DNA of 54,203 nucleotides from Clostridia bacterium (GCA_028280575.1 JANQLN010000104.1:1-54203); one strand, 5' to 3'. Positions 1,926 through 47,983 are shown, counted from the stretch's first letter. Numbers and translations: made by a program. The notes: generated by a model from the sequence alone, not told the origin.

Positions 1926-2039
1926 TAAACGGTTTTGTCAAATCCTCATTTATTTATAATTTTGACAAGACATTAAATGATGGTGCTGATGTCATTTATA
2001 TAGGTATGATGAACCAGCATTTAAGAAAGGGTGGATAAA

Positions 2040-3779: not shown

Positions 3780-3812
3780 CAAGGGAAAGAGAGTTTGTAA
3801 TAGTGGGACAGG

Positions 3813-5321: not shown

Positions 5322-5378
5322 CAAGATATAACAGTTAGTCCCAAAATTTGGATCAATAAATAAAAGGAGTGTTTACAT

Positions 5379-21829: not shown

Positions 21830-21844
21830 AACAAACTTCTTTCC
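21812..21844. terminator. Bidirectional terminator hairpin
   Basis: GGAAAGAAGTATGTTT is mirrored by AAACAAACTTCTTTCC with a single mismatch and a one-base loop. It contains the AraC stop codon (TAA, 21827-21829) and lies just past the convergent DUF4091 stop. Confidence 0.65.
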
Positions 21845-21857
21845 ATATTATATTAAC

Positions 21858-23459: not shown

Positions 23460-23498
23460 AATCCCACCCTCATAAACATAATATATTCAATTATAAAC

Positions 23499-23558
23499 TA
23501 CTAGTGGTCTGCTCGGAAAGTCCTAAATTTCTAGCAAAATAGATATATGCTATTTTGC
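23499..23558. other. Terminus fragment of the dispersed repeat plus hairpin
   Basis: TACTAGTGGTCTG (23499-23511) is the exact reverse complement of the outer 13 bases of the element at 54099-54111. Next to it GCAAAATA and TATTTTGC (23534-23558) form an 8-bp stem with a 9-base loop just after the lipoprotein stop, a weak terminator for the minus strand that would let part of transcription reach the DUF4091 gene. Confidence 0.4.
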
Positions 23559-23560
23559 AA

Positions 23561-25192
23561 TTATTTATTACTAAAATAACTATCAACTGCTTCCTGTTGA
23601 ATCTCTATCCACCTGGGCAATCCCATCTTATTTAATTCACTTATATATTTGTCCCAGTCATCATCAATTGAAGAATCTCCTGCAATCCATCTGGCCTGGT
23701 TATCACCAACATATTTAGAAATGTCTGTCCAAAGAATATCTGCTTCCTGCTGCTGCTCCGGAGTAAGCCATATCTGTGGAAATTTCTCCTTTATAATAAA
23801 TTCCTCATATACCTTATCAACATTTTCCTTCACAATACCCCCCACATTTTTTTCTATTTTGTCCCGCATCTCTTTTGTTATTAAATACGGGAATGAGCTT
23901 ATTGTTTCACTGTTGCGAAATTCATCAAAAGACATCCCTTCCGGCGTAGGAAGGTTTGTTATTGTTCCGTCTGATTGTTTCTCAATGGTAACACCAAAAG
24001 GTCCGCGTGCTACTTCAACAGACGTATCCGGATCAAAGAATTGGTCAACCCATCTGACAACAACTTCCGGATTTTTTGCTTCGGAAGTAACGGCAAATTG
24101 TGTCCTGAATATACTGGGATCTCCTTGAGGCCACATTTGGTGCCCCTTCTCTCCTTTTAGCGGAGGCAGCAGCAAAAAATTTTCTTCTGCTATTCTAGCG
24201 GTACACAAAGCGTGTGACTCCCAGGCGAAAAAGCTTCCCAATACCGCAGGTTCCTGTCGGGCTTTTGCAACATACTGCTGGTAATCCTGGGTAATGGCTT
24301 CAGGATCAAGCAACCCTTCCGAATAGAGCTTATTCAAGTATTTTATTGCATTTTTGTATTCCTGGTGAACCGCAGTAAATACTACCTTCCCATTTTCCAG
24401 AACTTTGCGGCCCCAGTTATCAACCCTGCCGAAGGACCCAAATAAACCATAAGGCTCATCGTTGCCTCCTAATCTGTAGCTCAAAGGAATCTCATCCGGT
24501 TTTCCGTTCCCATTTGGGTCATTTTCCTTAAAGGCTTTTAAAACCTGATAATATTCTTCTGTTGTCGTTGGCATGGGAAGATTCAGTTTTTCAAGCCACT
24601 TTTTATTAATATACATGACACCTTTTGTCAAGGGCTGCTTTGCGGCAATGGGCAGTGAATAAATATGACCGTCAGGTGTAGTTAGTACATCTCTGACCTC
24701 CGGCCAAATGCCAAATGCCTTATTAATGTTTTCCCCATAAGAATCAATCAACTTCTCCAGTGGAATCAACACGCCCTGGGACCCGTATGTCATAATATCC
24801 TTATCGCTTAAAAACCATCCCCCCATAGCGTCTGGATACGGCCCGGTTGCAAACATTAGATTTTTCTTTTCATTCGCCTGGGCGTAAGGGAAAACCTCCC
24901 ATTCCACAGATACATTCGTTTTTTCCTCAAGCCGTTTAAAAAATACCATTTCAGCCGGATCTTTTTCCGGCCCGGGAACCATAATTTTTATTGTAGTCTT
25001 CTCTTTTACAATGGGAAGACCTTTTAAATACATGTTACCCTCCATTTTCCTGCCGTCCGGTGACGTAGAGACATCACCCACAGTCTCCTTTTCCTGATTA
25101 CCCTTTTGTTCTTCTTTAGTACACCCAAACAGTGTGCCGTAAAAAACAAATACCAGCACCATAAAAAAGAACAATCCCTTACTAAGCTTCAT
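23561..25192 (-). CDS. Solute-binding lipoprotein, LplA/YtcQ type
   Basis: A 543-residue sugar-binding lipoprotein. The start is set at ATG 25192 by AAGGAGGAG seven bases upstream; the open frame extends 29 codons further but without a ribosome site. The signal peptide (KLSKGLFFFMVLVFVFYGT) ends in lipobox LFGC, with lipidated Cys24. Residues about 45-540 are the extracellular binding protein family 1 fold. A calcium-type loop, DPNGNGKPDE, is visible at about residue 215. It hands an oligosaccharide to the permease pair that precedes it in the operon. The ligand is unknown. Confidence 0.9.
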   Translation of the reverse strand: MKLSKGLFFFMVLVFVFYGTLFGCTKEEQKGNQEKETVGDVSTSPDGRKMEGNMYLKGLPIVKEKTTIKIMVPGPEKDPAEMVFFKRLEEKTNVSVEWEVFPYAQANEKKNLMFATGPYPDAMGGWFLSDKDIMTYGSQGVLIPLEKLIDSYGENINKAFGIWPEVRDVLTTPDGHIYSLPIAAKQPLTKGVMYINKKWLEKLNLPMPTTTEEYYQVLKAFKENDPNGNGKPDEIPLSYRLGGNDEPYGLFGSFGRVDNWGRKVLENGKVVFTAVHQEYKNAIKYLNKLYSEGLLDPEAITQDYQQYVAKARQEPAVLGSFFAWESHALCTARIAEENFLLLPPLKGEKGHQMWPQGDPSIFRTQFAVTSEAKNPEVVVRWVDQFFDPDTSVEVARGPFGVTIEKQSDGTITNLPTPEGMSFDEFRNSETISSFPYLITKEMRDKIEKNVGGIVKENVDKVYEEFIIKEKFPQIWLTPEQQQEADILWTDISKYVGDNQARWIAGDSSIDDDWDKYISELNKMGLPRWIEIQQEAVDSYFSNK

Positions 25193-25282
25193 ACTAAACT
25201 CCTCCTTGTTATTTATTGATAGGGCCATTTTATTTAATAAACAAACAGTGATATCAAATAAAACAATCCCTTTTAACACACA

Positions 25283-26173
25283 TTAGCCTTTCAATGAACC
25301 AATCATTACCCCCTTAACAAAATACTTTTGCAGGAATGGATACAACACGAGCAAGGGTAAACTTGCAATGATTATTAATGAATATTTTATTATTTCTGCA
25401 ATATTCTGTCGCTCTGCAAGTAAATCCTGATCTTTTACCATGGATAATTCCATTTGATTTTGGATTAAAATTCCCCTTAAAACCAGTTGAAGCGGAAATA
25501 ATTTTGTATCCCTGAGATATATTAAAGCATTGAAAAAAGAGTTCCAGTGCCCTACTCCGTAAAATAGGATTAAAATTGCTATCAAGGCTTTGGACAAAGG
25601 CAGTACTATTGAAGTGAAAAATTTTGTATGTGAGCATCCGTCAATAGTTGCCGATTCATACAACTCACGGGGAATACTGGTTTGTAAAAATGTACGGGCG
25701 ATTATTATATTCCATACACCAACTGCATTTGGAATTATCATAGCCCAGATTTTATTTACCATACCCAGATTATTAACTATTAAAAAAGTTGGGATCATTC
25801 CTCCTGAAAAAAACATGGTAAAGGCCAGAAAAAAAGAAATGACATTTCTTCCTATTAAATTCTTTCTGGAAAGGGCATATGCAGCGGTAAGCGTCATTGC
25901 AAGATTTATGGAAGTTCCCGATATTGCATAGACCAGCGAATTTTTATATCCTGATATAATATTAGGATCATTAAAAACTCTCCCGTAGCCTTCAAATGTT
26001 ACTTTTCTGGGCACAAACCAAACTTCTCCGCCGCTTACCAGAACAGGATCACTTATTGACGCAATAGCAACGAAATATAGAGGATATAGAACCAATAACA
26101 GTATAATAGTAAGAATTATATTGTTAACCCAGTCAAATACAATATCTGATTTTGTGCGGCTTAGCAAGCTCAA
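25283..26173 (-). CDS. ABC sugar permease, LplC/YtcP type
   Basis: A 296-residue permease with six membrane helices of the CUT1/Lpl class. The cytoplasmic EAA loop is ESATIDGCSHTKFFTSIVLPLS, and the typical ending FLQKYFVKGVMIGSLKG is present. The start is TTG at 26173, preceded by AAAGGGGG; this gives the same length as the second LplC in the window (296), whereas the longer frame to 26224 would overlap the previous gene. It pairs with the LplB-type permease just upstream and feeds from the lipoprotein downstream. No ATPase is in the operon. Confidence 0.93.
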   Translation of the reverse strand: MSLLSRTKSDIVFDWVNNIILTIILLLVLYPLYFVAIASISDPVLVSGGEVWFVPRKVTFEGYGRVFNDPNIISGYKNSLVYAISGTSINLAMTLTAAYALSRKNLIGRNVISFFLAFTMFFSGGMIPTFLIVNNLGMVNKIWAMIIPNAVGVWNIIIARTFLQTSIPRELYESATIDGCSHTKFFTSIVLPLSKALIAILILFYGVGHWNSFFNALIYLRDTKLFPLQLVLRGILIQNQMELSMVKDQDLLAERQNIAEIIKYSLIIIASLPLLVLYPFLQKYFVKGVMIGSLKG

Positions 26174-26189
26174 AACAAACACCCCCTTT

Positions 26190-27110
26190 CTACCAGAGAC
26201 TGACATCTGACATTTTTTGCGCAATTTTATTTACTATGGCTAAAAGTATAAAATTTATAACGGAATTAAATAAGCCTACCGCTGCTGAAAAGCTGAATTG
26301 TGCACCAAGCATACCTGTTTTATAAACATATGTGGAAATTATTTCAGAGGTTTGAGAATTCAAAGAATTCTGCATTAAATACACCTTTTCAAATCCAACG
26401 GACATTACGGATCCCAGATTCAGAATTAAAATTATAACTACAGTAGGTATTATCCCCGGAATATCTATATGAATTATTCTATCAATTTTTGTAGCACCAT
26501 CCATAATAGCTGCTTCATGTAGAGTAGGATCTATTTTAGATAGTGATGCAATATATATAATAGCACCCCAGCCGGTATTTTGCCATATATTGGACAGAAT
26601 ATACAATGGCCTGAACCATTCGGGTTTGGACATAAAGAATACTGCTTCCCCCCCAAAAAATCTTATTAAATGATTTACCAAACCGGTTCTCGGTGAAAGA
26701 AATATTATTATCATTCCCACTATTACAACTGTTGATATAAAATAGGGCGCGTAAGTTACGGTTTGTATTATTTTCTTATACCTGATGTTAGTTAACTGGT
26801 TTAAAAGCAAAGCAAATATAATTGGGACCGGAAAGCCTGCGGCAAGTGAAGTAATACTTAGAGTTAAAGTATTTCTTATTAATTCCCCAAAATAATAGGA
26901 ATTAAAAAATCTCTGAAAATGAGCAAATCCGACCCATTCACTACCACTTATTCCTTTGGTAGCTATAAAATTTCTAAATGCTATCTGTACGCCATACATG
27001 GGAACATAATGAAATATAATAATATAAATTATAGTTGGCAACAAAAAAAGATAAAGCTCATAATTGTGGCTAAGATATGAAATAGCACTTTTTTTGCTTG
27101 ACAGATTCAA
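26190..27110 (-). CDS. ABC sugar permease, LplB/YtcO type
   Basis: A 306-residue six-helix permease and the first gene of the operon. The EAA loop is EAAIMDGATKIDRIIHIDIPGI; the N-terminal YLFLLPTIIYIIIFHYVPMYGVQIAF is characteristic of the Lpl branch. It starts at TTG 27110 with AAAGGAGATG upstream. It forms a heterodimeric channel with the LplC-type protein that begins 17 bases after its stop. Transcription is probably activated by the membrane AraC sensor at 19541. Confidence 0.93.
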   Translation of the reverse strand: MNLSSKKSAISYLSHNYELYLFLLPTIIYIIIFHYVPMYGVQIAFRNFIATKGISGSEWVGFAHFQRFFNSYYFGELIRNTLTLSITSLAAGFPVPIIFALLLNQLTNIRYKKIIQTVTYAPYFISTVVIVGMIIIFLSPRTGLVNHLIRFFGGEAVFFMSKPEWFRPLYILSNIWQNTGWGAIIYIASLSKIDPTLHEAAIMDGATKIDRIIHIDIPGIIPTVVIILILNLGSVMSVGFEKVYLMQNSLNSQTSEIISTYVYKTGMLGAQFSFSAAVGLFNSVINFILLAIVNKIAQKMSDVSLW

Positions 27111-34669: not shown

Positions 34670-34773
34670 TACCTTGTATTAATTACAATTGAGTGCGGCA
34701 CAGGGAATTCCTGCGCCAAGCGCAGACATTTGCGGCTATGGAGCGCCGCTATACTGTAGATAGGAACAGCAAA

Positions 34774-34812
34774 CAGAGGAAGGAGCTTTTACGCTTCTTC
34801 CTCTGTCTTTGC
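34774..34812 (+). terminator. Terminator after the iron-regulated ABC pair
   Basis: CAGAGGAAGGAGC and GCTTCTTCCTCTG (34774-34805) form a 13-bp stem with a single G-T wobble and a 6-base loop, followed by TCTTTGC and T-rich sequence. Confidence 0.8.
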
Positions 34813-34909: not shown

Positions 34910-35050
34910 AAAAATTTTAAGCCGTTGACAAGCAAAGCTATTTATTATATATTAAATAATGCTCAGGTGTTCAGAAACTTTTTGTCTTAATCCACTAGTG
35001 CTACAGACCGCTAAATGCTTTGACAGTTATGTCCGGTAAGGGGTTTTTGT

Positions 35051-36679
35051 ATGGAAAAAGTCAGTTGTAAAGAATGCAAACAATTTTTTAAGCTGTTCAT
35101 CCTTATGATTATTTCTGTGGTGGCTCTGGCCGGTTGTTACAGTCACGGAAGGGACGGTAAATTTAACAGTACCGGGAAGCAAATCGAAAAATCGGGTGCA
35201 AGCCTTGAAGAATCAGATCCTTATGCACCTGTTGAAGGAAAGAAGTATAAGATTACCATGGTATCGGAGGGAGGACCCTATCCAGAAGATGCTGACATGG
35301 TCAAATACTGGAACGAACTTTTCAATGTAGAAATTGTTTTTTGCAAAATAGATGAAAGTAACTGGGATAAAGAGTTGAACACGCTCTTTGCTTCCGGAAA
35401 AATCCCGGACAAGATAACGGTAAAAAATCCCGGTTCTCTTTACTCATATTATGTAAGGGGTCTGATTTGTGAAATACCCGAGGATGTTTTTAAGAGACGG
35501 GCCCCCAATTACCACAGATTATATGAGGAGGATGTACCGGGGGCTTTAATATACGGAAAAATCGGCGGTAAGCTTTACGGCCTGCCCAGATTCCGTGCCC
35601 ATGCAAATTATAGAGGGCCGCTGATCACGAGAAAAGACTGGCTGGATAATGTGGGATACAAAGTTCCAGACACATTGGATGAGCTTGGGAAAGTGCTCTA
35701 CAGCTACACATACAATGACCCGGACGGCAACGACAAAAATGATACGTACGGTTTATCAAGCAGCTCCTTAAATGCCGTATATGGTTCCTATGGATACATT
35801 CCTGAATTTTGGGCCGAAAGGGACGGATATCTTACTTACGGGGCAATCCAGCCTGAAATGAAGGATGCACTTGCGCTGCTCCGGAAATGGTATGCGGACG
35901 GTGTTATTGATCCTGAATTTGTAACAGGCGAAAATAAAGGAGGATATTGGGCACTGTCCCATTCCTTTCTTAACGGCCAGATAGGCCTGACCGGGCATGG
36001 AAATTATTATCACTGGTGTGTAAGCCGAAAGTACGACTACCTTGGAGCGAATCCCGCGGAATTTGAAAAAATTAATCCGGAACTGAATGATTTGCTCATA
36101 AACCTAAAGCCTCCCACAGGTCCGGAAGGTAAGCATGGAACCGTACAGGAGAATATCATTATGGGAAGTTTTCTGACAATGGGAAAGCATCTTGCGGACC
36201 AGCCGGATAAAATGGGTAAAATATTGCAAATATTCGATTACGTATATGATAGCTATGAGCACTACATTACGGCGAGAAGAGGGATAGAGGGCTTGCATTG
36301 GAAAAGGGATGAATACGGCAAAGCTGAAAAGCTTTTCAGGGGAGAGAGCAATGTGATTGGTGCATTTACTTCCATTGCCGAATGTGAACCTCTGAAGTTT
36401 TGGGATACCCCGTATTACAAGGAATTTGCTGAGGAAAACGGCTATGATTCGGGAGGCATAAGAGATGCCCTTCTAGCGCCCCTGCCTTCTATGTCAATGT
36501 ACTGGAGCGAGCTTGAGAAGCTAAGGGAAAAGACTTACCTGGCTATTATAACAGGCAATAGGCCGTTGGATTATTTTGATGAGTTTATCGGTATATGGAG
36601 AGCCTCAGGCGGAGATGTTTTAACCGGGGAAGCAAATAAATGGCATACCGGCATAAAAAATGTCCACATCAGGAGATAG
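35051..36679 (+). CDS. Solute-binding lipoprotein, LplA/YtcQ type
   Basis: A 542-residue lipoprotein. A basic start and hydrophobic stretch end in lipobox LAGC, with lipidated Cys29. The rest is a family 1 extracellular binding fold. A calcium-type loop, DPDGNDKND, is near residue 215. It precedes the membrane AraC sensor and is separate from the main permease operon, which has its own lipoprotein. It may serve the same permeases or present ligand to the sensor. ATG start after TAAGGGG. Confidence 0.88.
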   Translation: MEKVSCKECKQFFKLFILMIISVVALAGCYSHGRDGKFNSTGKQIEKSGASLEESDPYAPVEGKKYKITMVSEGGPYPEDADMVKYWNELFNVEIVFCKIDESNWDKELNTLFASGKIPDKITVKNPGSLYSYYVRGLICEIPEDVFKRRAPNYHRLYEEDVPGALIYGKIGGKLYGLPRFRAHANYRGPLITRKDWLDNVGYKVPDTLDELGKVLYSYTYNDPDGNDKNDTYGLSSSSLNAVYGSYGYIPEFWAERDGYLTYGAIQPEMKDALALLRKWYADGVIDPEFVTGENKGGYWALSHSFLNGQIGLTGHGNYYHWCVSRKYDYLGANPAEFEKINPELNDLLINLKPPTGPEGKHGTVQENIIMGSFLTMGKHLADQPDKMGKILQIFDYVYDSYEHYITARRGIEGLHWKRDEYGKAEKLFRGESNVIGAFTSIAECEPLKFWDTPYYKEFAEENGYDSGGIRDALLAPLPSMSMYWSELEKLREKTYLAIITGNRPLDYFDEFIGIWRASGGDVLTGEANKWHTGIKNVHIRR

Positions 36680-36792
36680 AAACGGATAATTCATGTGCAG
36701 GTTTTGTCTGTTCAGGTGTAATCCCATGGGTTAATAATAGTGTATTTTGGATTGTTTATTATTCAATATGCTGAAAAAAGGCTGGTGTATTT

Positions 36793-39102
36793 ATGAGGAG
36801 AGTGCCAAACTCAATTTTTTTCAAATTCTTGATATCATCCACATTGGCAATTATCATCACTGCAATTTCCGTTGGAATTATCAGTTATTACAGCTATTCA
36901 TCAAGATACAGGACAGAAATTAAAAATAAGAACAAAATAATCATAGGAAATATCAGCGATTTAATGGAGAAGAAAATATTTATGAATATAGAGAACATAA
37001 GACTTACCTGCCTGGCCGGCCAGATGGAGCCCCAATTCTACTATTTTTTCAAATTTTTCAATTCCGAAATCAATGCCGATGCATTTACGGGTTATGAGGT
37101 TTATTTGTACTTAAAGGAACTGGCTGCCCAAAACGGTGAAATAATTGACGGGATTTCTGTGTATTATGTTATGGAAAATATTTTAATATCTTCTTCAAAA
37201 GGAATAAATTATTTGGATAGAGATATGAACAGTAAAATTATTGATACAGGATGGATTAAGGATATATTTATCAGGTTCAATAAATACCATGTGAAGAATA
37301 GGGATAAATTTAAGGCTATGGATGTGCATGAGGACAGGGTTACATTCTATTTCAGCTATTCCAATAAAAATAATGAGGTTGCCCCTATGGGATTTATTAA
37401 AATTGATATCAAAAAACGTGCTTTTTACGATATTATAAAAGGCTATTCATCAAATGATTTAACCATTGTTGCGGATAAGGAAGGAAAGGTTGTCACTTTT
37501 GAAAACAGCACGGATATACCTGTCAATGTTGATAAAATCGTCAAAGATATTAAAATTCCCGAAAACGGCGCTTCCTTTACCTTGAAAATGAAAGACTTTG
37601 AATATGTTGAGTGCGTTGTATTATATGATGTTATGAACTATAATGACTATAGGATAATAAGGCTGGTCCCTGACAATATTTTTTTCAAGCATTGGCGGAT
37701 AATTACCAGGAACATATTAATTTTATGCCTGATACTTACTACAGCGGTGTGCGTGTATCTTTTTGCTGCTTTTTCCAGAATATACTATCCTTTGAAGATG
37801 GTCATCCGCAAATTGAAAGGTACGTCCGGCAATATGAAATCTTTTGATAATGAGTGTTCGATTATCAATAATTCCTTTGAACAGCTGACTGCAAAGGTTG
37901 AGGATCTGCAATCCGTTCTGGAAGCAAACCATCCCATTTTAGAAAACCACTTTGTTTTCAATATCATAAATCGCAGCATAGCTACTGAAGAACAGGTAAA
38001 TCAGCACATAAAAATCCTCAATTTCAAACTTGAATTCAATGGCTTGACGGCGATATACATGGATATTCATCCGGAAGATAAAAAACGTATGTCAGGCCGG
38101 GTAAAGCACTTTATAAGAATTGACATAGGGAATTATATTAAAGCTCTGGGCGACTTCAACATGTTTTATATGTCAACAATTTTATCGGATTACGATATGG
38201 CAATTGTGTATGGAGCAAAAGAAAAAAATATAATTGGGCTTGACAGGAGCTTAGAACAGGTTTGCACCCATTTCATGAAGAAATATAGAGTAAGGGTGTT
38301 ATTTTCAATCGGAGACCGGGTATCGGACTGGCTTGAGCTTTATAAATCATATGAAATGGCCCGCCACACCATAAAATATGAATACTTTTTCCCTGAAATC
38401 AGTGTTTTTAAGCATGATGATTTTAAAGGAAGAAAAAAAAACAGTGACAAAAAAATTGCCTCCATGCTTGACAAATTCGAAAAAAGCCTCAAAGGCACAC
38501 ATGAACAAAAAGGCCTTCAACTCATTTCAAATATTATGGATACATTGAGGAGCGGTTCGTTTACTGCCGATTACTGTTATAAAGTCAGGGATGAAATAAA
38601 TGGAATATTCATAAAATACCTGGAGGATGTTGAAGTCAGCATGTCGAAAATAACGGGGGTATCGGATGAGCCGGATATGGATATTTTTGCCTTTGAAAAG
38701 AACATTATATGCAAGATAAAGAAAGCTTTTCACTTGATAAACGAAAAAAAGGAAAATCAAGCACAGGACATCATCTTCAAGGTGAAGAAGTATATCAGGC
38801 AAAACCCCGGAGAAGATTTATCCCTGAACAATGTGGCCCAAAAGGTTTATTTGAGCTCATTTTATTTAAGCAAGCTTTTCAAGAGAGAAACAGGTAAAAA
38901 CTTCACCGAATATGTTACCGAGCAGAGGATGAATTATGCCAGAAAATTATTAATGGAGACCGATATTAAAATAAATGACATAGCTGAAAAAGCCGGTTAC
39001 AGCAATACATCATATTTTATCAAGGTCTTCAAGGAAACATACGGTTTCCCACCTGGAGCCCTCCAGAAAAACATGCCAGGCACAGGCCTGGATGCTGAAT
39101 AA
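36793..39102 (+). CDS. Membrane-anchored AraC-type sensor-regulator
   Basis: A 769-residue protein built like the one at 19541: membrane helix (about 10-33), extracellular region (about 35-295), second helix (about 300-325), cytoplasmic linker (about 330-650) and C-terminal double HTH (LSLNNVAQKVYLSSFYLSKLFKR, KINDIAEKAGYSNTSYFIKVFKE). It is probably the activator of the permease/GH92 operon beginning 155 bases downstream. The ribosome site before the ATG is weak. The two membrane AraC proteins in the window are alike in layout but not close in sequence. Confidence 0.88.
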   Translation: MRRVPNSIFFKFLISSTLAIIITAISVGIISYYSYSSRYRTEIKNKNKIIIGNISDLMEKKIFMNIENIRLTCLAGQMEPQFYYFFKFFNSEINADAFTGYEVYLYLKELAAQNGEIIDGISVYYVMENILISSSKGINYLDRDMNSKIIDTGWIKDIFIRFNKYHVKNRDKFKAMDVHEDRVTFYFSYSNKNNEVAPMGFIKIDIKKRAFYDIIKGYSSNDLTIVADKEGKVVTFENSTDIPVNVDKIVKDIKIPENGASFTLKMKDFEYVECVVLYDVMNYNDYRIIRLVPDNIFFKHWRIITRNILILCLILTTAVCVYLFAAFSRIYYPLKMVIRKLKGTSGNMKSFDNECSIINNSFEQLTAKVEDLQSVLEANHPILENHFVFNIINRSIATEEQVNQHIKILNFKLEFNGLTAIYMDIHPEDKKRMSGRVKHFIRIDIGNYIKALGDFNMFYMSTILSDYDMAIVYGAKEKNIIGLDRSLEQVCTHFMKKYRVRVLFSIGDRVSDWLELYKSYEMARHTIKYEYFFPEISVFKHDDFKGRKKNSDKKIASMLDKFEKSLKGTHEQKGLQLISNIMDTLRSGSFTADYCYKVRDEINGIFIKYLEDVEVSMSKITGVSDEPDMDIFAFEKNIICKIKKAFHLINEKKENQAQDIIFKVKKYIRQNPGEDLSLNNVAQKVYLSSFYLSKLFKRETGKNFTEYVTEQRMNYARKLLMETDIKINDIAEKAGYSNTSYFIKVFKETYGFPPGALQKNMPGTGLDAE

Positions 39103-39156
39103 CAGTGGATTTCCCCCAACAGGACCAATATTTTATATTATGACAATTTTTTTTTA

Positions 39157-39195
39157 TTGTGTACCCCATATGCAGATGCTATAATTGCATTGCAA
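39157..39195 (+). promoter_or_regulatory. Promoter of the second uptake operon
   Basis: TTGTGT (39157-39162), 17 bases, TATAAT (39180-39185). A short palindrome TTGCATTGCAA (39185-39195) sits at the expected start point. Confidence 0.55.
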
Positions 39196-39257
39196 GCCAA
39201 TAATTTTTATACAGATGTTTATCAATCAGTTGTCTGTTTCTTGAAAGGAGGAATAAT

Positions 39258-40211
39258 ATGCAAAATAGTCTGTCATTAAATAAAAATACCCGAAAACCTT
39301 TTTTAAATAAAGAAATAAAAACAAGGATAAAGCTGATGAGAGGCATTTACCTGCTGGCACTTTTACCTGTCCTGCATACGATAATTTTCAAGTATGGAGC
39401 CATGTATGGCATTATAATTGCTTTTAAGGATTACAATCCGGTTGCCGGCATACTGAAAAGCCCCTGGAACGGTTTTGAGCATTTCCAGTTTTTATTCAAC
39501 ACTCCAAGCCTGTGGCAGCTTGTTAGAAATTCATTAAGATTGAGTTTTCTCGGGTTGATTTTCGGATTCCCTTCTGCGGTGGTATTTGCCATACTAATCA
39601 ATGAATTAAGAAACATATCCTACAAAAAGGTTGTACAGACCATATCGTACCTTCCGCACTTCTTATCCTGGGTTGTTATAGGGGCTATGGTAAAAATGCT
39701 GCTTTCGACGGATAAAGGTCCCATAAATATGCTGATAGCATCACTGGGATGGGAGAAGATACCTTTTTTGGCTACCCCAAATATATTCATCGGAACTTTG
39801 GTTGTATCAGATATATGGAAAAACATGGGGTGGGGAAGTATAGTATATCTTGCTGCACTAACATCAATAAATCAATACCTGTATGACGCATCAGATATTG
39901 ACGGGGCAACACGGTTCCAAAAAATCAGGTATATAAACATACCCTCCCTGGTGCCTGTAATGACCATATTATTGATTTTAAGAATAGGGAGCATAATGGA
40001 CCTGAGCTTTGACCAGATTTTTAACCTTTACAACCCGCTCGTCTATGACGTAGCGGATATATTTGATACATATGTATACCGGATAGGCCTGATCAACATG
40101 CAGTATGATTATTCGACCGCAATAGGGCTTTTTAAAACCCTGGTAGGTCTGATACTGCTTTTGATTACGAACGGTATTGTCAGAAAAGTCAGTGATTACG
40201 CCCTATGGTAA
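39258..40211 (+). CDS. ABC sugar permease, LplB type
   Basis: A 317-residue six-helix permease with the Lpl-branch N-terminus (YLLALLPVLHTIIFKYGAMYG) and EAA loop DASDIDGATRFQKIRYINIPSL. GAAAGGAGG precedes the ATG. It is first in a run of six same-strand genes ending at 47983 and pairs with the LplC-type permease 40 bases on. No ATPase is encoded nearby. Confidence 0.93.
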   Translation: MQNSLSLNKNTRKPFLNKEIKTRIKLMRGIYLLALLPVLHTIIFKYGAMYGIIIAFKDYNPVAGILKSPWNGFEHFQFLFNTPSLWQLVRNSLRLSFLGLIFGFPSAVVFAILINELRNISYKKVVQTISYLPHFLSWVVIGAMVKMLLSTDKGPINMLIASLGWEKIPFLATPNIFIGTLVVSDIWKNMGWGSIVYLAALTSINQYLYDASDIDGATRFQKIRYINIPSLVPVMTILLILRIGSIMDLSFDQIFNLYNPLVYDVADIFDTYVYRIGLINMQYDYSTAIGLFKTLVGLILLLITNGIVRKVSDYALW

Positions 40212-40251
40212 TAAATACAGCCGGTCCGGCAGATGAAAGGAGCTTACAATT

Positions 40252-41142
40252 TTGGCAAAGTTAATCAGAGATAAAAAAGAGAGGATTTTTGATATACTGA
40301 ATATCGTATTCATGTTTCTTTTTTGCATAACCATTATTTATCCTTTCTGGGATGTGATCCGTCTTTCCATCGAGGATAACGGGGCAATCAAATCAATAGG
40401 CTTCAGGCTGTGGAATTCTAAGAATACGCTTGAAGCATATGATTATCTGATTTTTCACGACGGGCTCATATTGCGTGCATATGCAAATACACTTTTCAGA
40501 ACGGTCGTGGGGACAGGGCTTTCACTGATTGTTACCCTTGCAGGAGCCTATTCCCTGTCAAAAAGGAATTTACCGGGGAGAAACGCACTTACATTCTTCT
40601 ACCTGGTAACCATGTTTTTCAGTGGCGGACTGATACCCTCCTATATTTTAATTAGAAGTGTGGGGTTGTACGATTCGATATGGGTATACATTGTTCCGGG
40701 GTTATTGAGTGTATACAATATGATAATCATGAGAAATTTTCTTATGGCTATGGATGCGGGGATAGAAGAGTCTGCACTCATTGAGGGGGCGGGCTATGTG
40801 AGAATACTGTTCAGTATTATTGTGCCTCTCAGCACTCCCGTTATAGCAACTATTGCTCTGTGGAATGCTGTCGGGCATTGGAATGCATGGTTTGACAGCA
40901 TGATTTATACAAAGGGTACCAGGCTGATTGTGCTTCAAATGCTTATACGACGGGCCACGGAGGCGCTTGATAGTGTGGGGAGTGCAATATACAGCTTTAA
41001 CGACGAGAAATTGGCAGAGTTGGAACGGGAAAATGTCCAGGCTGCCACAATAATATTGACAATAGGTCCCATCGTCCTGACATATCCCTTCCTTCAAAAG
41101 TATTTTGTCAAGGGGATCATGATAGGGTCGCTGAAAGGATAA
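40252..41142 (+). CDS. ABC sugar permease, LplC type
   Basis: A 296-residue six-helix permease; the EAA loop is ESALIEGAGYVRILFSIIVPLS and it ends FLQKYFVKGIMIGSLKG, matching the other LplC in the window. The TTG start has GAAAGGAG upstream. It forms the channel with the preceding LplB-type protein and is followed 30 bases later by its lipoprotein gene. Confidence 0.93.
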   Translation: MAKLIRDKKERIFDILNIVFMFLFCITIIYPFWDVIRLSIEDNGAIKSIGFRLWNSKNTLEAYDYLIFHDGLILRAYANTLFRTVVGTGLSLIVTLAGAYSLSKRNLPGRNALTFFYLVTMFFSGGLIPSYILIRSVGLYDSIWVYIVPGLLSVYNMIIMRNFLMAMDAGIEESALIEGAGYVRILFSIIVPLSTPVIATIALWNAVGHWNAWFDSMIYTKGTRLIVLQMLIRRATEALDSVGSAIYSFNDEKLAELERENVQAATIILTIGPIVLTYPFLQKYFVKGIMIGSLKG

Positions 41143-41172
41143 AATTTTAACATTTAAAAGGGGAGATGAAGC

Positions 41173-42912
41173 ATGAAAGCAAGAAGAATTTTTGTTTTGG
41201 TACAGGTATTTTTTCTGGCAGCCGCACTTTGCGCATGTGCTAACCGGGAAGACAGCGATGAAAAAGGCAGTACAACCGCCGGCACTGAGAAAACCGATAA
41301 AGATTTGGGCGAGCCGGCAGTTGAAAACCCGTTTGCAGAGCATATGGAAATATCGTGGCTGGGTTATACTATGAAGAGTGATTATTACCCGGAGAATGAA
41401 TACCAGAAATATGTGGAAGAAAAGTATAATGTGACGATCAAGATACCCGATTTTCTTGACTGGAGAAATCCGGAGCAGATCAGCTTGATGGCTGCTACGA
41501 ATAATTTGCCCGATTTTGTCGCCATAGTCCGCGGCCTCAATATGAAGGATATCAATGAGCAGGGCCTTACCCGGACAATTCCCATATCTGCAGTCAGGGA
41601 ATATGCTCCTGACCTGGCTGAAGTGATGGACAGGAAAGGGGGATGGATAGTAAGCCAAAAACAGGGAGCGGAAGAATTATATGCTGTTTGCAGGTATTTT
41701 GAATTTGGTCCCTATGAGGAAACGGGCCTGTTTTTGCGATTGGACTGGATGGAAAATTTAGGAATAGAACCCAAGGGTGAGTTAACAGACCTTTATAACG
41801 GTATATATTATACATCTTCCGAGCCTTATACACTGGACGAGCTCAAGGATATTTTGCACAGGTTCGTAAATGATGACCCGGATAAGGACGGTGAGCACGA
41901 CACAATCGGATTGGAAAGGCTTTACTATAATTTTGCTTCCGCCTTTGGAATCCAGATGGGGTGGGATCACAGCAGGTTTGAGATAGGCAATATTCTGGAA
42001 GACGGAAAGGCGGTGCCCTGGTGGGGAAGCAAAAAACAGAAGGATTTTCTGAAATTTGCCAGAAACCTTTACAAGGAAGGACTGCTTATACAGGATGCCG
42101 TGCTTGAAATCAATTCAAGCGGAATGGATACGGAATACTGGGAAGCCGACCAGTGTGGTGCCATCATGCATTATTACTATAAAATTAAACCCGGTAAAAA
42201 AGACGGATTTTGTGAAAGCCTGATCAACAATGTAGAAGGGGCTAAATTCCTGATAGCTCCCATGCCCGTCAATCCTGAAACGGGACTATGTACAAGCGGT
42301 CCAGAGTTTTTTACAGACTATGGCAGTCCCTGGAACCAGAGGGATATCTCCGTTGTGAATGCCAGTGTGGATGATGCAAAACTGGAAAGAATTCTAAGAA
42401 TTTACAATGATATTAGCTGCAAAAAAGAGGATTTTGCGCGTATGTGGTTCGGTGTGGAGGGCAAGGATTACATGTGGAACGGAGAGCCGTTTGCCAGCAC
42501 CGTAGTATATCCCGAAAGCCGTAAAGCCAATGAACAGGGCTCCGGACTGCTGGGCGGGTATTTCTTTATACCGGAATATTATGATATTGTAAATGTCTAT
42601 GACAAGCCAATGGAAAAAATTTATAAATCATGGGGTACAACACAGGGACTGCTCGGCGGAAATCTGTATCCGTACAAAATGGACTTTTTAAATGAAACAA
42701 ATATTGTAGATGTCCGGAAGAGATATATTTCCGATTTGATGACAAAGACCCAGAAGTATTATGTAGAGGCTATCCTGGGAAATATAGATATTGATTCCAC
42801 CTTTGACGGCCATTTGAATAATCTTATGAAATCAGGTCTGAAGGAGTGGGTGGAAGAGTTGAACAAAGGCCTGGTGACCAGTGAATTCAAGAAAGGCAAG
42901 ATTGTACATTAA
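41173..42912 (+). CDS. Solute-binding lipoprotein, LplA/YtcQ type
   Basis: A 579-residue lipoprotein of the second uptake operon. The signal peptide (RRIFVLVQVFFLAAA) ends in LCAC with the likely lipidated Cys22; Cys at -2 of the lipobox is unusual. The family 1 binding fold follows. A calcium-type loop, DPDKDGEHD, is near residue 235. AAAGGGGAG precedes the ATG. It is the island's second lipoprotein, and its place right after the permease genes makes it the more likely transport partner. Confidence 0.9.
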   Translation: MKARRIFVLVQVFFLAAALCACANREDSDEKGSTTAGTEKTDKDLGEPAVENPFAEHMEISWLGYTMKSDYYPENEYQKYVEEKYNVTIKIPDFLDWRNPEQISLMAATNNLPDFVAIVRGLNMKDINEQGLTRTIPISAVREYAPDLAEVMDRKGGWIVSQKQGAEELYAVCRYFEFGPYEETGLFLRLDWMENLGIEPKGELTDLYNGIYYTSSEPYTLDELKDILHRFVNDDPDKDGEHDTIGLERLYYNFASAFGIQMGWDHSRFEIGNILEDGKAVPWWGSKKQKDFLKFARNLYKEGLLIQDAVLEINSSGMDTEYWEADQCGAIMHYYYKIKPGKKDGFCESLINNVEGAKFLIAPMPVNPETGLCTSGPEFFTDYGSPWNQRDISVVNASVDDAKLERILRIYNDISCKKEDFARMWFGVEGKDYMWNGEPFASTVVYPESRKANEQGSGLLGGYFFIPEYYDIVNVYDKPMEKIYKSWGTTQGLLGGNLYPYKMDFLNETNIVDVRKRYISDLMTKTQKYYVEAILGNIDIDSTFDGHLNNLMKSGLKEWVEELNKGLVTSEFKKGKIVH

Positions 42913-42972
42913 AAATTTACACAGCATTTGTTAAGTTAATGTATTAATGAATTAAGTATTGGGAGGCATATT

Positions 42973-44259
42973 ATGGAACAATATCCAATCGGTCTATGGA
43001 ACTCGCTTGACCTGGATTCGCTGGATCCCGGGGATGTGGACGACTGGAAGGACCTGGGAATGACCTTAGCCATAAGTCCGAAATACGACTTTGAAAGGCA
43101 TGACGGGAAAAAGATGAGGGAAATACTGGACAGGGCACATGTAAAGGGCATGAAGGTTTTTGTCAGGGATAAAAAGAGTGAATGGGGAGGCGTCCGTAAA
43201 GGCGAAGAAGCATATAGGAGAGGTTTTGAAGGGGCGCTTGAGGAATTCGGCAGCCATCCAGGGGTAATGGGATTTTATATCGGAGATGAACCGGACCGGC
43301 ACACCATGGAGGATGCCTGCATGGCATACCGCATCCAGAGGGAAATGGCCCCGGAGCTTGCTCCATTTTTGAATCTTCTTCCCTGGTATGTGAAAATAGG
43401 TGAACTGTTTGGAATTGCAGAGGGTGAAGAGGACAGGTTTGTACCCGTATCGGGCATAGAGGAGAGGACGGGCTATCCTGATTTTAGACAGTACCTTGAA
43501 GGCTATATCAGTCAGGCAGGACCGGCTTTCCTCATGTATGACTGCTATTCTCAAATGCTGCCCGGGGAAAAGGGATTGGATATGTATTTCAACAACCTGA
43601 GGGAATACGGAAGCGCAGCCCTAAGGCATGGGATTCCATTCTGGACCGCACTTTTGTCCATAGGCCATTTTATGTATGAATGTCCCTGTGAAGACGACTT
43701 AAGGTGGCAGCTGAACACTGCTGCCGCCCATGGGGCGGCGGGGATCGTATGGTATTATATCTACCAGCAGAAGACAAGGAGCAATTACAGGATTGCGCCC
43801 ATAGACGAGCACTGTGAAAAGACAGAAACATACGGATGGATGAGGAGGGTGAACAAAAGCTTTCTTAAGGGTAACGGACCCACGGTAAAGAGGCTCCGTT
43901 TGAAAAAGGTAATGCACGCGGGGAAGGCATACGGCGGGAACAGTGTCTTCAGTGAAGACGGATTGGTGCTGGATGTCAAATCTTTTTTGAAAACTCCCAT
44001 GATTGTGTCTGAATTCAAGGACGAAAAAGAAAACGATTATGTGATGGTTGTTAACAACAGCAGGAAGGATTCCACCCTTGCAGCTCTAGTGCTGCGCCGG
44101 CCCACAGGGCGAGTGGAACTGATTGGCTGGGAGAACAGGGCCCTGCCGGCAGAGCAGGAATGTTATTCCTGTGTGAAGGAAGAAGGATATGTGTCGCTGG
44201 TGGAGTGGTTTGCACCCGGACAGATGTATCTGTATAAGATAGACAGGAGGAAGATATGA
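42973..44259 (+). CDS. Putative TIM-barrel glycoside hydrolase, family unassigned
   Basis: A 428-residue cytoplasmic protein that I cannot place in a named family. The first 300 residues read like an (alpha/beta)8 barrel: DPGDVDDWKDLGMTLAIS, GMKVFVRDKK, GFYIGDEPDR (an Asp-Glu pair typical of a clan-A acid/base position), FLMYDCYSQM, PFWTALLSIGH and GAAGIVWYYIYQQK. The last 120 residues resemble a beta-sandwich. It lies between the lipoprotein and GH92 genes; its stop overlaps the GH92 start (ATGA), so they are coupled and should act on the same imported glycan. GGGAGG precedes the ATG. Confidence 0.7.
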   Translation: MEQYPIGLWNSLDLDSLDPGDVDDWKDLGMTLAISPKYDFERHDGKKMREILDRAHVKGMKVFVRDKKSEWGGVRKGEEAYRRGFEGALEEFGSHPGVMGFYIGDEPDRHTMEDACMAYRIQREMAPELAPFLNLLPWYVKIGELFGIAEGEEDRFVPVSGIEERTGYPDFRQYLEGYISQAGPAFLMYDCYSQMLPGEKGLDMYFNNLREYGSAALRHGIPFWTALLSIGHFMYECPCEDDLRWQLNTAAAHGAAGIVWYYIYQQKTRSNYRIAPIDEHCEKTETYGWMRRVNKSFLKGNGPTVKRLRLKKVMHAGKAYGGNSVFSEDGLVLDVKSFLKTPMIVSEFKDEKENDYVMVVNNSRKDSTLAALVLRRPTGRVELIGWENRALPAEQECYSCVKEEGYVSLVEWFAPGQMYLYKIDRRKI

Positions 44260-46463
44260 AAAGATTTGTTGAATACGCATCACCCTTTCTTGGGAATGGA
44301 GAAACAGAGCTTGGTGAGGTTGAAGGCATTGCGGCATCTTGGTTTTTCATAAAGGCGCAGACTGGAAACACTAATCCTGGGGCCTGCCTGCCTTTTGGGA
44401 TGGTATCGGTGTGCCCTTATTCGGGAGCATATGTATCGGGATACGGTAAACACCTGCCCAGTTACTATGGAGCTGTGGGAAAGATATCCAATGAATACCG
44501 TGCTACAGGCTTCACCCATTTCCATCAGAGCGGGACAGGTGGAATAGGGAAGTATTATAATTATATAAAGGTGACGCCTTTATCGGAGGGGATAGAAAAT
44601 TATGGGAAAGCATGGCCCCTGATAAGGGAAAGGGCACATCCCGGCTACTATAGTGCGGAGCTTGACGGCACAGGCATCAAAGCTGAACTCACAGTATCGA
44701 AAAAGGCGGCTTTTCACAGGTATTCATTTGCAAAAAGCGGGAAAAGGCATATTATGGTGGATTTTTCCGCAGGCGGACTTATGTTTGAGGGAATGGAATC
44801 AATTCCCCAGGAAGTTGAGCTGCAGGTTATGGATAAAAATACCGCAAGGGGCCGCATACTGGTAGAAGGCATAACCGTATATGCATACATCAGCCTTGAA
44901 GGCCTGTCAGAAGGGTGCCGCATAATGAAAAGCGGGAGAATAATTGAATTGACCCGTATTGATATGAAAAGGCAGGAGGTTGAAATGTCCGGTATCGTAT
45001 TCTGCTTGAAGGATAAAGGTGTGAAAGAATATAACATGAGAATAGGGTTTTCCCTCAAGAGCTTTGAAAAAGCGGAAGAGAATATTGGAGATATAGCAGG
45101 CAAAAGGTTTGAAGAGGCATGTGAAAACAGCATGAGCATATGGAATGAATATCTTGGCAGGATATGTGTGGAGGGGGGAAGCGAGGATCAGAAGGAAATA
45201 TTCTATTCACTGCTTTATCACAGCATAAAAAAGCCGGCCGACTTTGGAGGGGAAAACCCATTCACAAAAAGTGAAGAGGCGTTTTATGTCGATTTTGCGA
45301 CCCTGTGGGACCAGTATAAAACCCACACACCTCTGATGCTGACCTTTTATCCTGAGCACGGGAGAGATGCAATAAATTCATGCCTTTGTATTGGAAAGCG
45401 CCTTGGAGAATTTCCGAATGCAATACTCTTATGTGATGATTTTACAATATGTAACCGTCAGGGGATGGCTTTGCTGCACTACTCAATAACAGACGGGTAT
45501 TTCAGGGGCATTGGAGGTATAGAATGGGAAACTGCCGTGAAATTAATGATGGCAGACATATTCAATGAAAAGAACAGAAGCTTTCTGGAGGGAGGAAAAA
45601 CAGAGAGGAGAACCCATGTACTTGACCTGTCGGGTGCATGCTTTAGTAGCCTTTATTTATTGAAGCAGGCAGGAGACGTTGAGAATATGGAAAAGATGCT
45701 GAAGCTGTCGGGCTACTGGATCAATGTATATGACAGGGAAACAGGGAGGCTTGAAGAAGAAGGGTCCTATTATGAAGGAGGTCTATGGAATTATTCCTTT
45801 CGCCTGCTGCATGACATGAAAGAGCGCATATCCCTTTATAAGAGAGAAGAGGATTTTGTAAGAGATCTTGACAGCTTTTTCGGCTACGGGAAAGCTGCTG
45901 TCAGACAACCGGAAGACCCGACGGATGCTGATTACATCAAATGGGGGATTTCCCTGAACCGTTTTGAAGGATACAACAATGAACCGGATATGGAGGTCCC
46001 CTATGCATACATATATGCGGGAAGGCATGACAGAACCTGTGAAATAGTGAGGTCAGGAATGAAATATATGTTTGCAGCGGGAAGGGGAGGACTTCCCGGA
46101 AATGATGATTCGGGAGGGCTGTCGTCCTGTTATGTCTGGAATGCCATAGGATTATTTCCGGTAGCAGGACAGCCTGTGGTACTGATAGGAAGCCCGGTTT
46201 TCGACAGGATTACACTCAATATGGGGGGGAAAAGGTTTGTCATAAAAGCGAGGAACAACTCGGAGAAAAACATCTACATACAGGAAGCGTTTCTGGACGG
46301 CAAGGAAATCAGGAGGGCATACCTGTGGATAGAAGAGCTGTATTCAAGAGGAGAACTGGAGTTGGTCATGGGGAGTGAGTATAACGGCTGGGCAAAGGAT
46401 GAGCTCCCTCCTTCAAGGGATGATTACCTGTCAAAGCTTGGCCTGGAGGATTTGAAAAGATAG
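44256..46463 (+). CDS. GH92-family alpha-mannosidase-like enzyme
   Basis: A 735-residue enzyme with the GH92 plan: N-terminal beta-sandwich with NTNPGACLPFGMVSVCP, then ATGFTHFHQSGTGG, then the (alpha/alpha)6 catalytic domain with WDQYKTHTPLM and the GNDDSGGLSSCYVWNAIGLFP block (about residue 615). It ends with the typical SPVFDRITLNMGGKRFVIKA and NIYIQEAFLDG strands. GH92 enzymes are calcium-dependent exo-alpha-mannosidases acting by inversion. It has no signal peptide, unlike most characterised members, so it should trim imported mannose-containing oligosaccharides. Linkage cannot be told. The ATG overlaps the previous stop. Confidence 0.87.
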   Translation: MKRFVEYASPFLGNGETELGEVEGIAASWFFIKAQTGNTNPGACLPFGMVSVCPYSGAYVSGYGKHLPSYYGAVGKISNEYRATGFTHFHQSGTGGIGKYYNYIKVTPLSEGIENYGKAWPLIRERAHPGYYSAELDGTGIKAELTVSKKAAFHRYSFAKSGKRHIMVDFSAGGLMFEGMESIPQEVELQVMDKNTARGRILVEGITVYAYISLEGLSEGCRIMKSGRIIELTRIDMKRQEVEMSGIVFCLKDKGVKEYNMRIGFSLKSFEKAEENIGDIAGKRFEEACENSMSIWNEYLGRICVEGGSEDQKEIFYSLLYHSIKKPADFGGENPFTKSEEAFYVDFATLWDQYKTHTPLMLTFYPEHGRDAINSCLCIGKRLGEFPNAILLCDDFTICNRQGMALLHYSITDGYFRGIGGIEWETAVKLMMADIFNEKNRSFLEGGKTERRTHVLDLSGACFSSLYLLKQAGDVENMEKMLKLSGYWINVYDRETGRLEEEGSYYEGGLWNYSFRLLHDMKERISLYKREEDFVRDLDSFFGYGKAAVRQPEDPTDADYIKWGISLNRFEGYNNEPDMEVPYAYIYAGRHDRTCEIVRSGMKYMFAAGRGGLPGNDDSGGLSSCYVWNAIGLFPVAGQPVVLIGSPVFDRITLNMGGKRFVIKARNNSEKNIYIQEAFLDGKEIRRAYLWIEELYSRGELELVMGSEYNGWAKDELPPSRDDYLSKLGLEDLKR

Positions 46464-46552
46464 TCCTACGGTAGACATGACCCGTATTTTTATATGGATA
46501 CAATGTGCAGTGCACTGTAAAATAATACATACAATGGGGGAGGAAAGAGCAG

Positions 46553-47983
46553 ATGGAATTTAATAAAGGGCAAAAGCATGTATTTATTGACTGGTTTGGT
46601 GTAGAACCGGGATATGGTACTCCATGGCACAATAAAGTTGCAATGAACCATCTTTTTATACCCTATGGAATCAGGATAAAAATACACAGGCCCGTATTGG
46701 AAACCGAACCTGCCATATTGCCGGACAGACAGTGGGAAGGTATGTGCCTGGGTGCATATGCGACATTCATCAGGGAAGACGGGATATATAGGGCATGGTA
46801 TGAATGTATTGGCGCGGACGAAACAAGTGATATGAAGAGTTATCTTGCCTATGCCGAGTCGGAAGATGGAATGGAATGGAAAAAACCTGTACTCGGAGCA
46901 TATGAATATAAGGGTTCAACGGAAAACAACATTATCTGCAGGTCCCATGGGAGCTCAGTGCTGAAAGACGATGCTTTAATGATTGGCGGAAAGTATAAAA
47001 AATTAAGGGTGGAATATAATTCAGGCAAAACCTTTGATACACATAGGATTTACTTTGCACAGTCAGAAGATGGCATAATATGGAATGAATGGCCCGGAGA
47101 GGTATGCAAAAATCCTGCTGATACACAGAATATTCTTGTTTACAACAATATGGAAAGAAGATATGAAATATATACAAGACAGTGCATTGAATGGGAAAGC
47201 TTTTTGAGAAAGGAAGCTGAAAATCCTCCCAGGAGGGCGGTATGCAGGCTGGCAACTACGGATTTCAAAAACTGGGAGAAGCCGGAAATGTTAATAACAG
47301 TGAATCCCAATGACCCGCCTGACTGGGACATCTATACAAACAGCTACCATTCATGGCCGGGTACGCCAAATGCATACCTGATGTTTCTCGGCATGTACCG
47401 CAGAACCGATGACTGTATTGACATACACCTTGCTTTAAGCAGGAACGGTACCGAATGGTACAGGCCCACGGGCAGGGAAGCCTTGATTCCTAACGGGCCT
47501 TACGGTTCATTCAATTCATGCTCCATATATGCCACATGTGGAATACTGCCGGTAAGGAAGGGGCAGTGGTGTATCTATGTAAGGGCAGACCCATACGGAC
47601 ATAATATTCCTTACGGCAAGCTGAGAATGCCTTATTCGGCATACTACAGAGCGGTTATCAGGGAAGACGGCTTCTGCTCTGTACGGGCCGACTCAAAGGG
47701 AAGGTTCTGGACAGGCACAATTGAAAAATTTGAAGGTGAACATCTTTATATCAATGCCGTTGTTCCCTATTCCGGATATATAAGGGCAGGCCTTTATGAT
47801 GACGCTACAGGTGAAGAAATCAAAGGCTTCGGGCTTGATTCATGCAGGGAGCTCAATGGAGATGTACTCTGGGAGAAGCTTGCCTGGAGCGAAGGTGACA
47901 ATTTGGGGAAGCTTCATGGCAGGAAGTTCAGAATATGCTTTGATTTGTTTAAGTCCGATATCTATGGATTCAAGTTTGAGTGA
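46553..47983 (+). CDS. Predicted five-bladed beta-propeller glycosidase-like protein
   Basis: A 476-residue cytoplasmic protein I cannot name by family. Repeated strand patterns such as GIYRAWYECIG, AYAESEDGMEWKKP, YFAQSEDGIIWNEWP, RLATTDFKNWEKP and ALSRNGTEWYRP have the aromatic SxDGxxW signature of GH32/43/68/130-type propellers. The last 110 residues look like a beta-sandwich. GH130-type phosphorylases often work on mannosides, which would suit the neighbouring GH92, but I see no diagnostic motif. GGGGGAGG precedes the ATG. It is last in the operon, 90 bases after GH92; the gap to 48158 has no gene or clear terminator. Confidence 0.65.
   Translation: MEFNKGQKHVFIDWFGVEPGYGTPWHNKVAMNHLFIPYGIRIKIHRPVLETEPAILPDRQWEGMCLGAYATFIREDGIYRAWYECIGADETSDMKSYLAYAESEDGMEWKKPVLGAYEYKGSTENNIICRSHGSSVLKDDALMIGGKYKKLRVEYNSGKTFDTHRIYFAQSEDGIIWNEWPGEVCKNPADTQNILVYNNMERRYEIYTRQCIEWESFLRKEAENPPRRAVCRLATTDFKNWEKPEMLITVNPNDPPDWDIYTNSYHSWPGTPNAYLMFLGMYRRTDDCIDIHLALSRNGTEWYRPTGREALIPNGPYGSFNSCSIYATCGILPVRKGQWCIYVRADPYGHNIPYGKLRMPYSAYYRAVIREDGFCSVRADSKGRFWTGTIEKFEGEHLYINAVVPYSGYIRAGLYDDATGEEIKGFGLDSCRELNGDVLWEKLAWSEGDNLGKLHGRKFRICFDLFKSDIYGFKFE

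Follow-up and report, generated by a model that had tools for sequence, protein, structure and literature searches.

The eight genes at positions 35051-47983 are best read, with a probability of roughly 0.6, as an operon for the CUT1-type import and the breakdown of an oligosaccharide in an uncultured member of the Bacillota, where three enzymes without signal peptides would work in the cytosol. All three enzymes fall in divergent branches of known enzyme superfamilies. The most interesting part of the operon is the TIM-barrel protein, whose family appears to lack the nucleophile of clan GH-A. Our best guess is that the imported glycan is a hetero-oligosaccharide containing an alpha-linked sugar that is manno-configured or related. 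This reading is based on gene order, common strand, short gaps, an ATGA overlap, the transport and regulator families and the absence of signal peptides, together with the retained GH92 catalytic pair, the GH42-like model of the TIM-barrel protein and the profile match of the propeller protein to GH130 and GH32. Against it, the pairing of any of the three enzymes is unseen in the sampled relatives and the operon has no ATPase, monosaccharide kinase or isomerase.

The window, which is the whole stretch of DNA that was analysed, is an entire contig (C130) of 54,203 bp, from a genome of 4.35 Mb in 143 contigs that belongs to a very small family. The eight open reading frames are all on the + strand, at the coordinates that a first-pass annotation had given (Table 1). 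Their order is lipoprotein, membrane AraC sensor, two permeases, second lipoprotein, TIM-barrel protein, GH92 protein and propeller protein. From 5' to 3', they are separated by 114, about 155, 41, 31 and 61 bases, a 4-base overlap (ATGA, at 44256-44259) and 90 bases, the overlap being the coupling of the TIM-barrel and GH92 genes that was described earlier. This layout suggests that the eight frames are probably a single operon. The next gene downstream is a TetR gene, which starts 264 bases past the propeller gene. A scan of the window with Rfam found no RNA element, and a search for anti-phage families gave no match.

Table 1. Features of the predicted operon and of the sequence upstream of it.
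Feature	Position	Strand	Basis
Terminator-like hairpin, 14-bp stem, upstream of candidate promoter	34773-34806		consensus match only
Candidate promoter TTGACA-17-TATATT	34925..34953	+	consensus match only
SBP1, lipoprotein solute-binding protein, 5gx8/AlgQ type	35051..36679	+	lipobox LAGC; 5gx8, AlgQ1 matches
Membrane-anchored AraC-family sensor-regulator	36793..39102	+	HTH_18 E 7.8e-22; TM segments read from sequence
ABC permease 1, LplB type	39258..40211	+	BPD_transp_1, PF00528 E 4.5e-8
ABC permease 2, YtcP type, TTG start	40252..41142	+	PF00528 1.3e-4 (below cut-off); UgpE model 1e-8
SBP2, second lipoprotein solute-binding protein	41173..42912	+	lipobox LCAC; 5xs8 E 3.4e-4
GH42-like clan GH-A barrel protein (predicted), C-terminal beta-sandwich	42973..44259	+	acid/base E106; model and alignment
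GH92 protein, divergent clade	44256..46463	+	E507 acid, D618 base, D352; W390-equivalent = A389
GH130/GH32-like beta-propeller protein, Asp-box-like repeats, C-terminal beta domain	46553..47983	+	family profile

In terms of transport and sensing, the membrane AraC sensor, the two lipoproteins and the two permeases of the first-pass annotation were all recovered, through HTH_18, transmembrane segments, lipoboxes and permease matches. The sensor has an N-terminal transmembrane segment and a second one, both seen in the sequence. The best structure matches of SBP1 are 5gx8 (E 1.3e-21) and AlgQ1 (E 6.5e-14), and SBP2 matches a solute-binding protein of the 5gx8 type weakly. We take 5gx8 to be Smon0123, a binder of unsaturated glycosaminoglycan disaccharides, while the ligands of AlgQ are alginate oligosaccharides. 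A lipoprotein SBP and two MalF/MalG-type permeases, with an ATPase of the shared type elsewhere in the genome, are the components of a CUT1 system. None of the eight frames encodes the ATPase; the genome has one OB_MalK/MsmX-type ATPase gene, on contig C11, and an ATPase encoded away from the sugar-import operon is the usual shared arrangement. Genes for monosaccharide catabolism (kinase, isomerase) are also absent from the operon. The description of the uptake system as complete therefore holds for the binding proteins and permeases and fails for the ATPase and monosaccharide catabolism.

The same annotation stated that nothing here has a signal peptide. This is correct for the three enzymes, which have no N-terminal hydrophobic segment; the two SBPs are lipoproteins with lipoboxes. 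The maximum hydropathy over 15 residues in the first 65 aa is 0.30, 1.12 and 0.66 in the three enzymes, against 2.75-2.86 in the lipoproteins.

In the preferred reading, the AraC sensor, which is known to us as a gene, would detect the sugar outside the cell. SBP1, SBP2 or both would capture the oligosaccharide and hand it to the two permeases, which would draw their energy from a shared MsmX-type ATPase whose gene lies outside the operon, presumably the one candidate of the genome. The three enzymes would dismantle the oligosaccharide in the cytosol. The GH92-clade enzyme would be an inverting, Ca-dependent exo-alpha-glycosidase acting via Glu507 and Asp618, the GH42-like barrel protein would act through Glu106, and the GH130/GH32-like propeller protein would be the third enzyme in the breakdown.

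The combination of a signal-less GH92 enzyme and oligosaccharide import is already known in Firmicutes, from SpGH92/NgtS of Streptococcus pneumoniae (PMC5215778), so that the kind of operon is known and its enzyme branches are variants. Both systems have a GH92 without known secretion signal, oligosaccharide import, and two permeases with a lipoprotein SBP and no local ATPase. The authors of that study suppose SpGH92 to act outside the cell despite the lack of a known secretion signal (PMC5215778). In contrast to the pneumococcal set (SpGH92, GH38, GH125, NgtS-P1-P2), the window operon has no GH38, GH125, ROK or endoglycosidase gene, its GH92 is of a different type, and the TIM-barrel and propeller proteins are extra. 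The operon type is common; what matters is that two of its enzymes break rules used for function prediction.

The assignment of the window protein to the GH92 sequence family, made in the first pass, is firm. PF07971 (E 7.3e-77), PF17678 (E 7.1e-30) and TIGR01180 are all above cut-off, and PF17678 and PF07971 together give the architecture of the family, an N-terminal beta-sandwich and an (alpha/alpha)6 catalytic domain. Both domains are shared with the mannosidases BT3990, BT3130, BT3965 and SpGH92 (2wvx, 6f8z, 6f91, 5swi), and the nearest chain to the window protein is 7zgm. Profile alignment to 6f8z and 2wvx points to E507 as general acid and D618 as general base, and alignment to the structures makes D352 the equivalent of the mannose-bridging Asp353. 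The roles of the acid, the base and the bridging Asp are described in PMC5215778 and PMC5930347. The catalytic residues, whose loss the first-pass annotation had named as fatal to its proposal, are kept in the window protein. With regard to the putative active-site Ca2+ ligands, N575 and E576 of the 'NNEP' motif are also kept.

GH92 relatives were sought in 391 genomes of the class, which gave five further full-length proteins at 37-39% identity, besides one at 41% (L051). These six and the window protein form one side of a tree branch with support 100/100. Because the other rows of the tree are few, the clade is distinct from the sampled GH92 proteins and not from all GH92. In BT3130, Trp390, Cys399 and Met400 belong to the -1 subsite and are fully conserved across mannosidases that differ in linkage specificity (PMC5930347). 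The equivalents of Trp390 and of the Cys399-Met400 pair are gone in all seven clade members, with Ala (A389) at the Trp390 position in the window protein and Ala, Cys, Ser or Thr across the clade. The change of this Trp to Ala is not by itself unique to the clade, since another GH92 group (L058, L059, L061) shares it. Residues found only in the clade include C462, D578, E580 and C625; relative to the known mannosidases, the Ser and His of 'NEPSHH' are Asp578 and Glu580 here, and the Trp of 'SAWY' is Cys625. The catalytic-base motif is NDD, which is associated with alpha-1,3 rather than alpha-1,2 enzymes (PMC12858847), and the alignment has no counterpart of the His-Glu motif in the 580-loop of BT3990 (alpha-1,2). 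The separate clade and the lack of a signal peptide also set the window protein apart from these mannosidases.

Since Trp390, Cys399 and Met400 mark the mannosidases of known structure and not membership of the family, the GH92 filing stands despite their loss. The remodelled -1 pocket makes plain D-mannose uncertain as the substrate of the clade. The automatic label "alpha-mannosidase" may be mistaken in a group of anaerobic Bacillota, because the clade keeps the catalytic pair and not the mannose pocket. In the sequence covered around the six relatives, LplB/YtcP-type transport genes were found near one of them (L107), about 5 kb upstream.

The TIM-barrel protein is predicted to be a GH42-like barrel of clan GH-A and not a known GH42. 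It has no match in Pfam, including GH42 at cut-off, and as a single query it found nothing in the genome-contig collection. An alignment of three sequences, used on the same collection, led to 26 loci of the family in Clostridia, Hydrogenedentes, Chloroflexi, Planctomycetes, Verrucomicrobia and others. An AlphaFold model built from 29 sequences (pLDDT 93.5, pTM 0.92) has GH42 as its nearest fold (5e9a; VIA-align Z 26.8, rmsd 3.1, 348 residues) and a GH164 beta-mannosidase as the second (Z 23.8), while the family profile matches GH5 and GH42 by sequence, and GH158 and GH2 weakly. Structure prediction, the check proposed in the first pass for this unassigned protein, thus placed it as GH42/GH5/GH164-like, although families nearer than GH42, GH164 and GH5 may exist. 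The comparison of the family with the GH123 gene of the same window, represented by one sequence, showed no relation between them (hhalign probability 0.6%).

Like GH42 and GH164 enzymes, the protein has a barrel and a C-terminal beta-sandwich, with Glu106 of beta4 aligned with the acid/base of the clan, and its beta6 'YDxY' matches the 'WDNYP' of GH42. It differs in its length (428 aa, against about 650-700), in the Asp105 that precedes the acid/base where Asn is usual in the clan, and in beta7, which reads FWTALLS and has no conserved carboxylate. E106 is present in 29/29 aligned sequences and is aligned to the Glu of the GH5 'NEP' (4lx4). D105, P107, D190 and Y192 are likewise invariant, and W9, N134 and Q246 are almost invariant. 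Because 'DE' was part of one of the two search patterns, the invariance of D105/E106 is to some extent built in for the loci which that pattern found; the pair also occurs in loci outside this pattern (L066-L070, FHVGDEP or FHIGDEP) and in tandem copies. Across the 29 sequences, no conserved Asp or Glu was found on beta7 (223-228) or after it (residues 222-238), hence the family seems to have no clan GH-A nucleophile. Membership of GH164, a family of retaining beta-mannosidases, is not supported: the fold is similar, yet no conserved beta7 carboxylate was found. This would make it a widespread clan GH-A-like family (Clostridia, Hydrogenedentes, Planctomycetes, Verrucomicrobia) without the nucleophile that defines the mechanism of the clan. 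Searching the literature for a GH42-like family without a nucleophile returned nothing relevant, which is weak evidence of absence.

A bolder reading, to which we give little credence, is that the TIM-barrel protein founds a new glycosidase family, a GH42-like clan GH-A barrel that has given up the beta7 nucleophile and relies on the invariant beta4 pair Asp105-Glu106, and that it partners a GH92 branch which has ceased to be a typical mannosidase. The mechanism of the TIM-barrel protein in that case may be substrate assistance, as with the Asp-Glu pairs of hexosaminidase families, or inversion with Asp190. Read by eye, a hydrophobic leader is absent in the Clostridia-type members and present in the planctomycete-type ones. 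Tandem genes of the family occur in L076:7555-14914 (five full copies and one split) and in L086:5629-13910 (five or more).

The propeller protein belongs to a large unclassified family, nearest to the GH130 mannoside phosphorylases and to GH32. The family profile matches the GH130 phosphorylases 7fip (E 8.5e-11) and 9fj8 (E 7.6e-10), as well as GH32 enzymes and others. The GH130 chains are reached only by this profile and not by the Pfam scan of the window protein, in which neither GH130 (PF04041), at E 0.1, nor GH32 gave a match. One relative (L040) is above the cut-off for the Pfam GH32 N-domain. When set against GH130 and GH32/GH43-type propellers (7fip, 9fj8, 3u14), the profile match covers the first propeller blades. 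Asp139 is aligned with the Asp of the GH130 motif EDPR, which reads KDDA here, the Arg not being kept, and the window protein has an extra C-terminal beta domain. The Pfam-recognised GH130 genes of the genome lie outside the operon. The TIM-barrel and propeller proteins had been put forward as candidates for new glycosidase or phosphorylase activities; both do fall in carbohydrate-active superfamilies, but a propeller phosphorylase finds no backing in Pfam GH130. The SEDGxxW-like repeats noted earlier are real and number three (SEDGMEW, SEDGIIW and SRNGTEW). Repeats of the SxDGxxW type are turns resembling the Asp box, an element with a structural role in other propellers. A model built from this sequence alone reached a pLDDT of 35.6, too low to use.

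Propeller relatives are numerous in the order, at about 25-31% identity, and often adjoin LplB/YtcP-type permeases, amid unrelated gene sets. In the viral-contig collection, no relatives were found with the window protein, a close alignment or a relative as query, and a more distant propeller query gave two weak loci. An 80-residue piece at G000:C132:24400-24639 (L012; L034 about 9401-9640) matches the C-terminal end of the window propeller at 66% identity; it sits in an open frame of 115 aa and is likely the remnant of a close copy. Propeller domains are also found inside larger frames (L042:4339-14379, 3,346 aa; L045:2772-5243, 823 aa; L047:7923-10244, 773 aa), so the family also serves as a module. 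In L044:1500-12597 and L048, propeller genes lie beside genes that by eye are MttB-like, uroporphyrinogen-decarboxylase-like and PIG-L-like, a hint of methylated or N-acylated substrates in some propeller operons. A further locus, L041, has a frame resembling GH38 by eye, which makes a mannoside link possible for some members of the family.

A rather unlikely alternative is the import of mannan or high-mannose N-glycan, with the GH92 protein as a true alpha-mannosidase and the TIM-barrel and propeller proteins acting on the same mannoside, perhaps as a GH164-like beta-mannosidase and a GH130-like beta-mannoside phosphorylase. The GH92 enzymes with measured activity in the studies cited here are alpha-mannosidases (PMC5215778, PMC12858847), the window protein keeps Glu507, Asp618 and Asp352, and S. 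pneumoniae is a working model (PMC5215778). The best relatives of known structure of the propeller family are beta-1,2-mannoside phosphorylases, GH164 is a fold neighbour of the TIM-barrel protein, and five GH38 and two GH130 genes are found elsewhere in the genome. However, the clade has lost -1 residues that structurally characterised GH92 mannosidases share, which leaves "mannoside" unproven, and the nucleophile used by retaining clan GH-A enzymes, GH164 included, appears to be missing from the TIM family. Structure matches of the SBPs include 5gx8 and AlgQ and do not include NgtS (5suo). Nine neighbour proteins of the GH92-clade relatives were scanned; the glycosidases among them are GH30, GH10, GH28 and GH106-like, with no mannan or N-glycan family there, nor in the operon besides GH92. 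The usual carriers of this alternative (mannose pocket, mannan partners, SBP type) point away or are neutral. The term "mannoside-type" of the first-pass annotation finds no support in the pocket, the missing BT3990 motif or these neighbours, and a "mannan/N-glycan" label for the imported sugar is not supported by the evidence.

The claim that the three enzymes form one pathway on the same glycan found no support either, as relatives of the three were never neighbours of each other in the sampled loci. The 26 TIM loci (flanks up to 10 kb), 17 regions retrieved in the propeller and TIM searches and six GH92-clade regions yielded no second trio member (phmmer E 1e-4 throughout), a negative that is incomplete because several regions are short contigs. 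As no pair of the three is kept together in the sampled relatives, the case for a shared substrate comes from this operon only, and the sampled loci do not support the trio as a conserved pathway. In other genomes, both the TIM and the propeller families turn up again next to LplB/YtcP-type permeases, which is what one would expect of enzymes that work on imported sugars. A mixed cargo, in which one or two enzymes handle the imported sugar while the others arrived by shuffling, is unlikely. It would agree with the isolation of the trio and with the at least three near-full-length propeller paralogues (C126, C112, C88) and fragments in unrelated operons of this genome, with many in relatives, but not with the tight same-strand packing and the ATGA overlap. 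That the TIM-barrel protein, the propeller protein or both are non-catalytic, such as sugar-binding or regulatory relatives of glycosidases, is quite improbable: the apparent lack of the nucleophile in the TIM family and the name of 6n1a, a carbohydrate-binding protein among the PDB matches of the propeller family, speak for it, but the invariance of D105-E106-P107, D190 and Y192 from Clostridia to Planctomycetes fits an active site better than decay.

Lastly, other carbohydrate genes were observed in the window and the genome. A second locus at 19541-27110 has a dCache-AraC sensor and, on the opposite strand, two permeases, an SBP and a GH123-type protein (PF13320 E 1.2e-51). At 2031-6926, GH2, GH43 and sulfatase (SGSH_C) genes lie in a row, adjoining two AraC regulators. 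The GH38 and GH130 genes of the genome are on C53, C27, C95, C116, C99, C13 and C49, and the genome has only one GH92.
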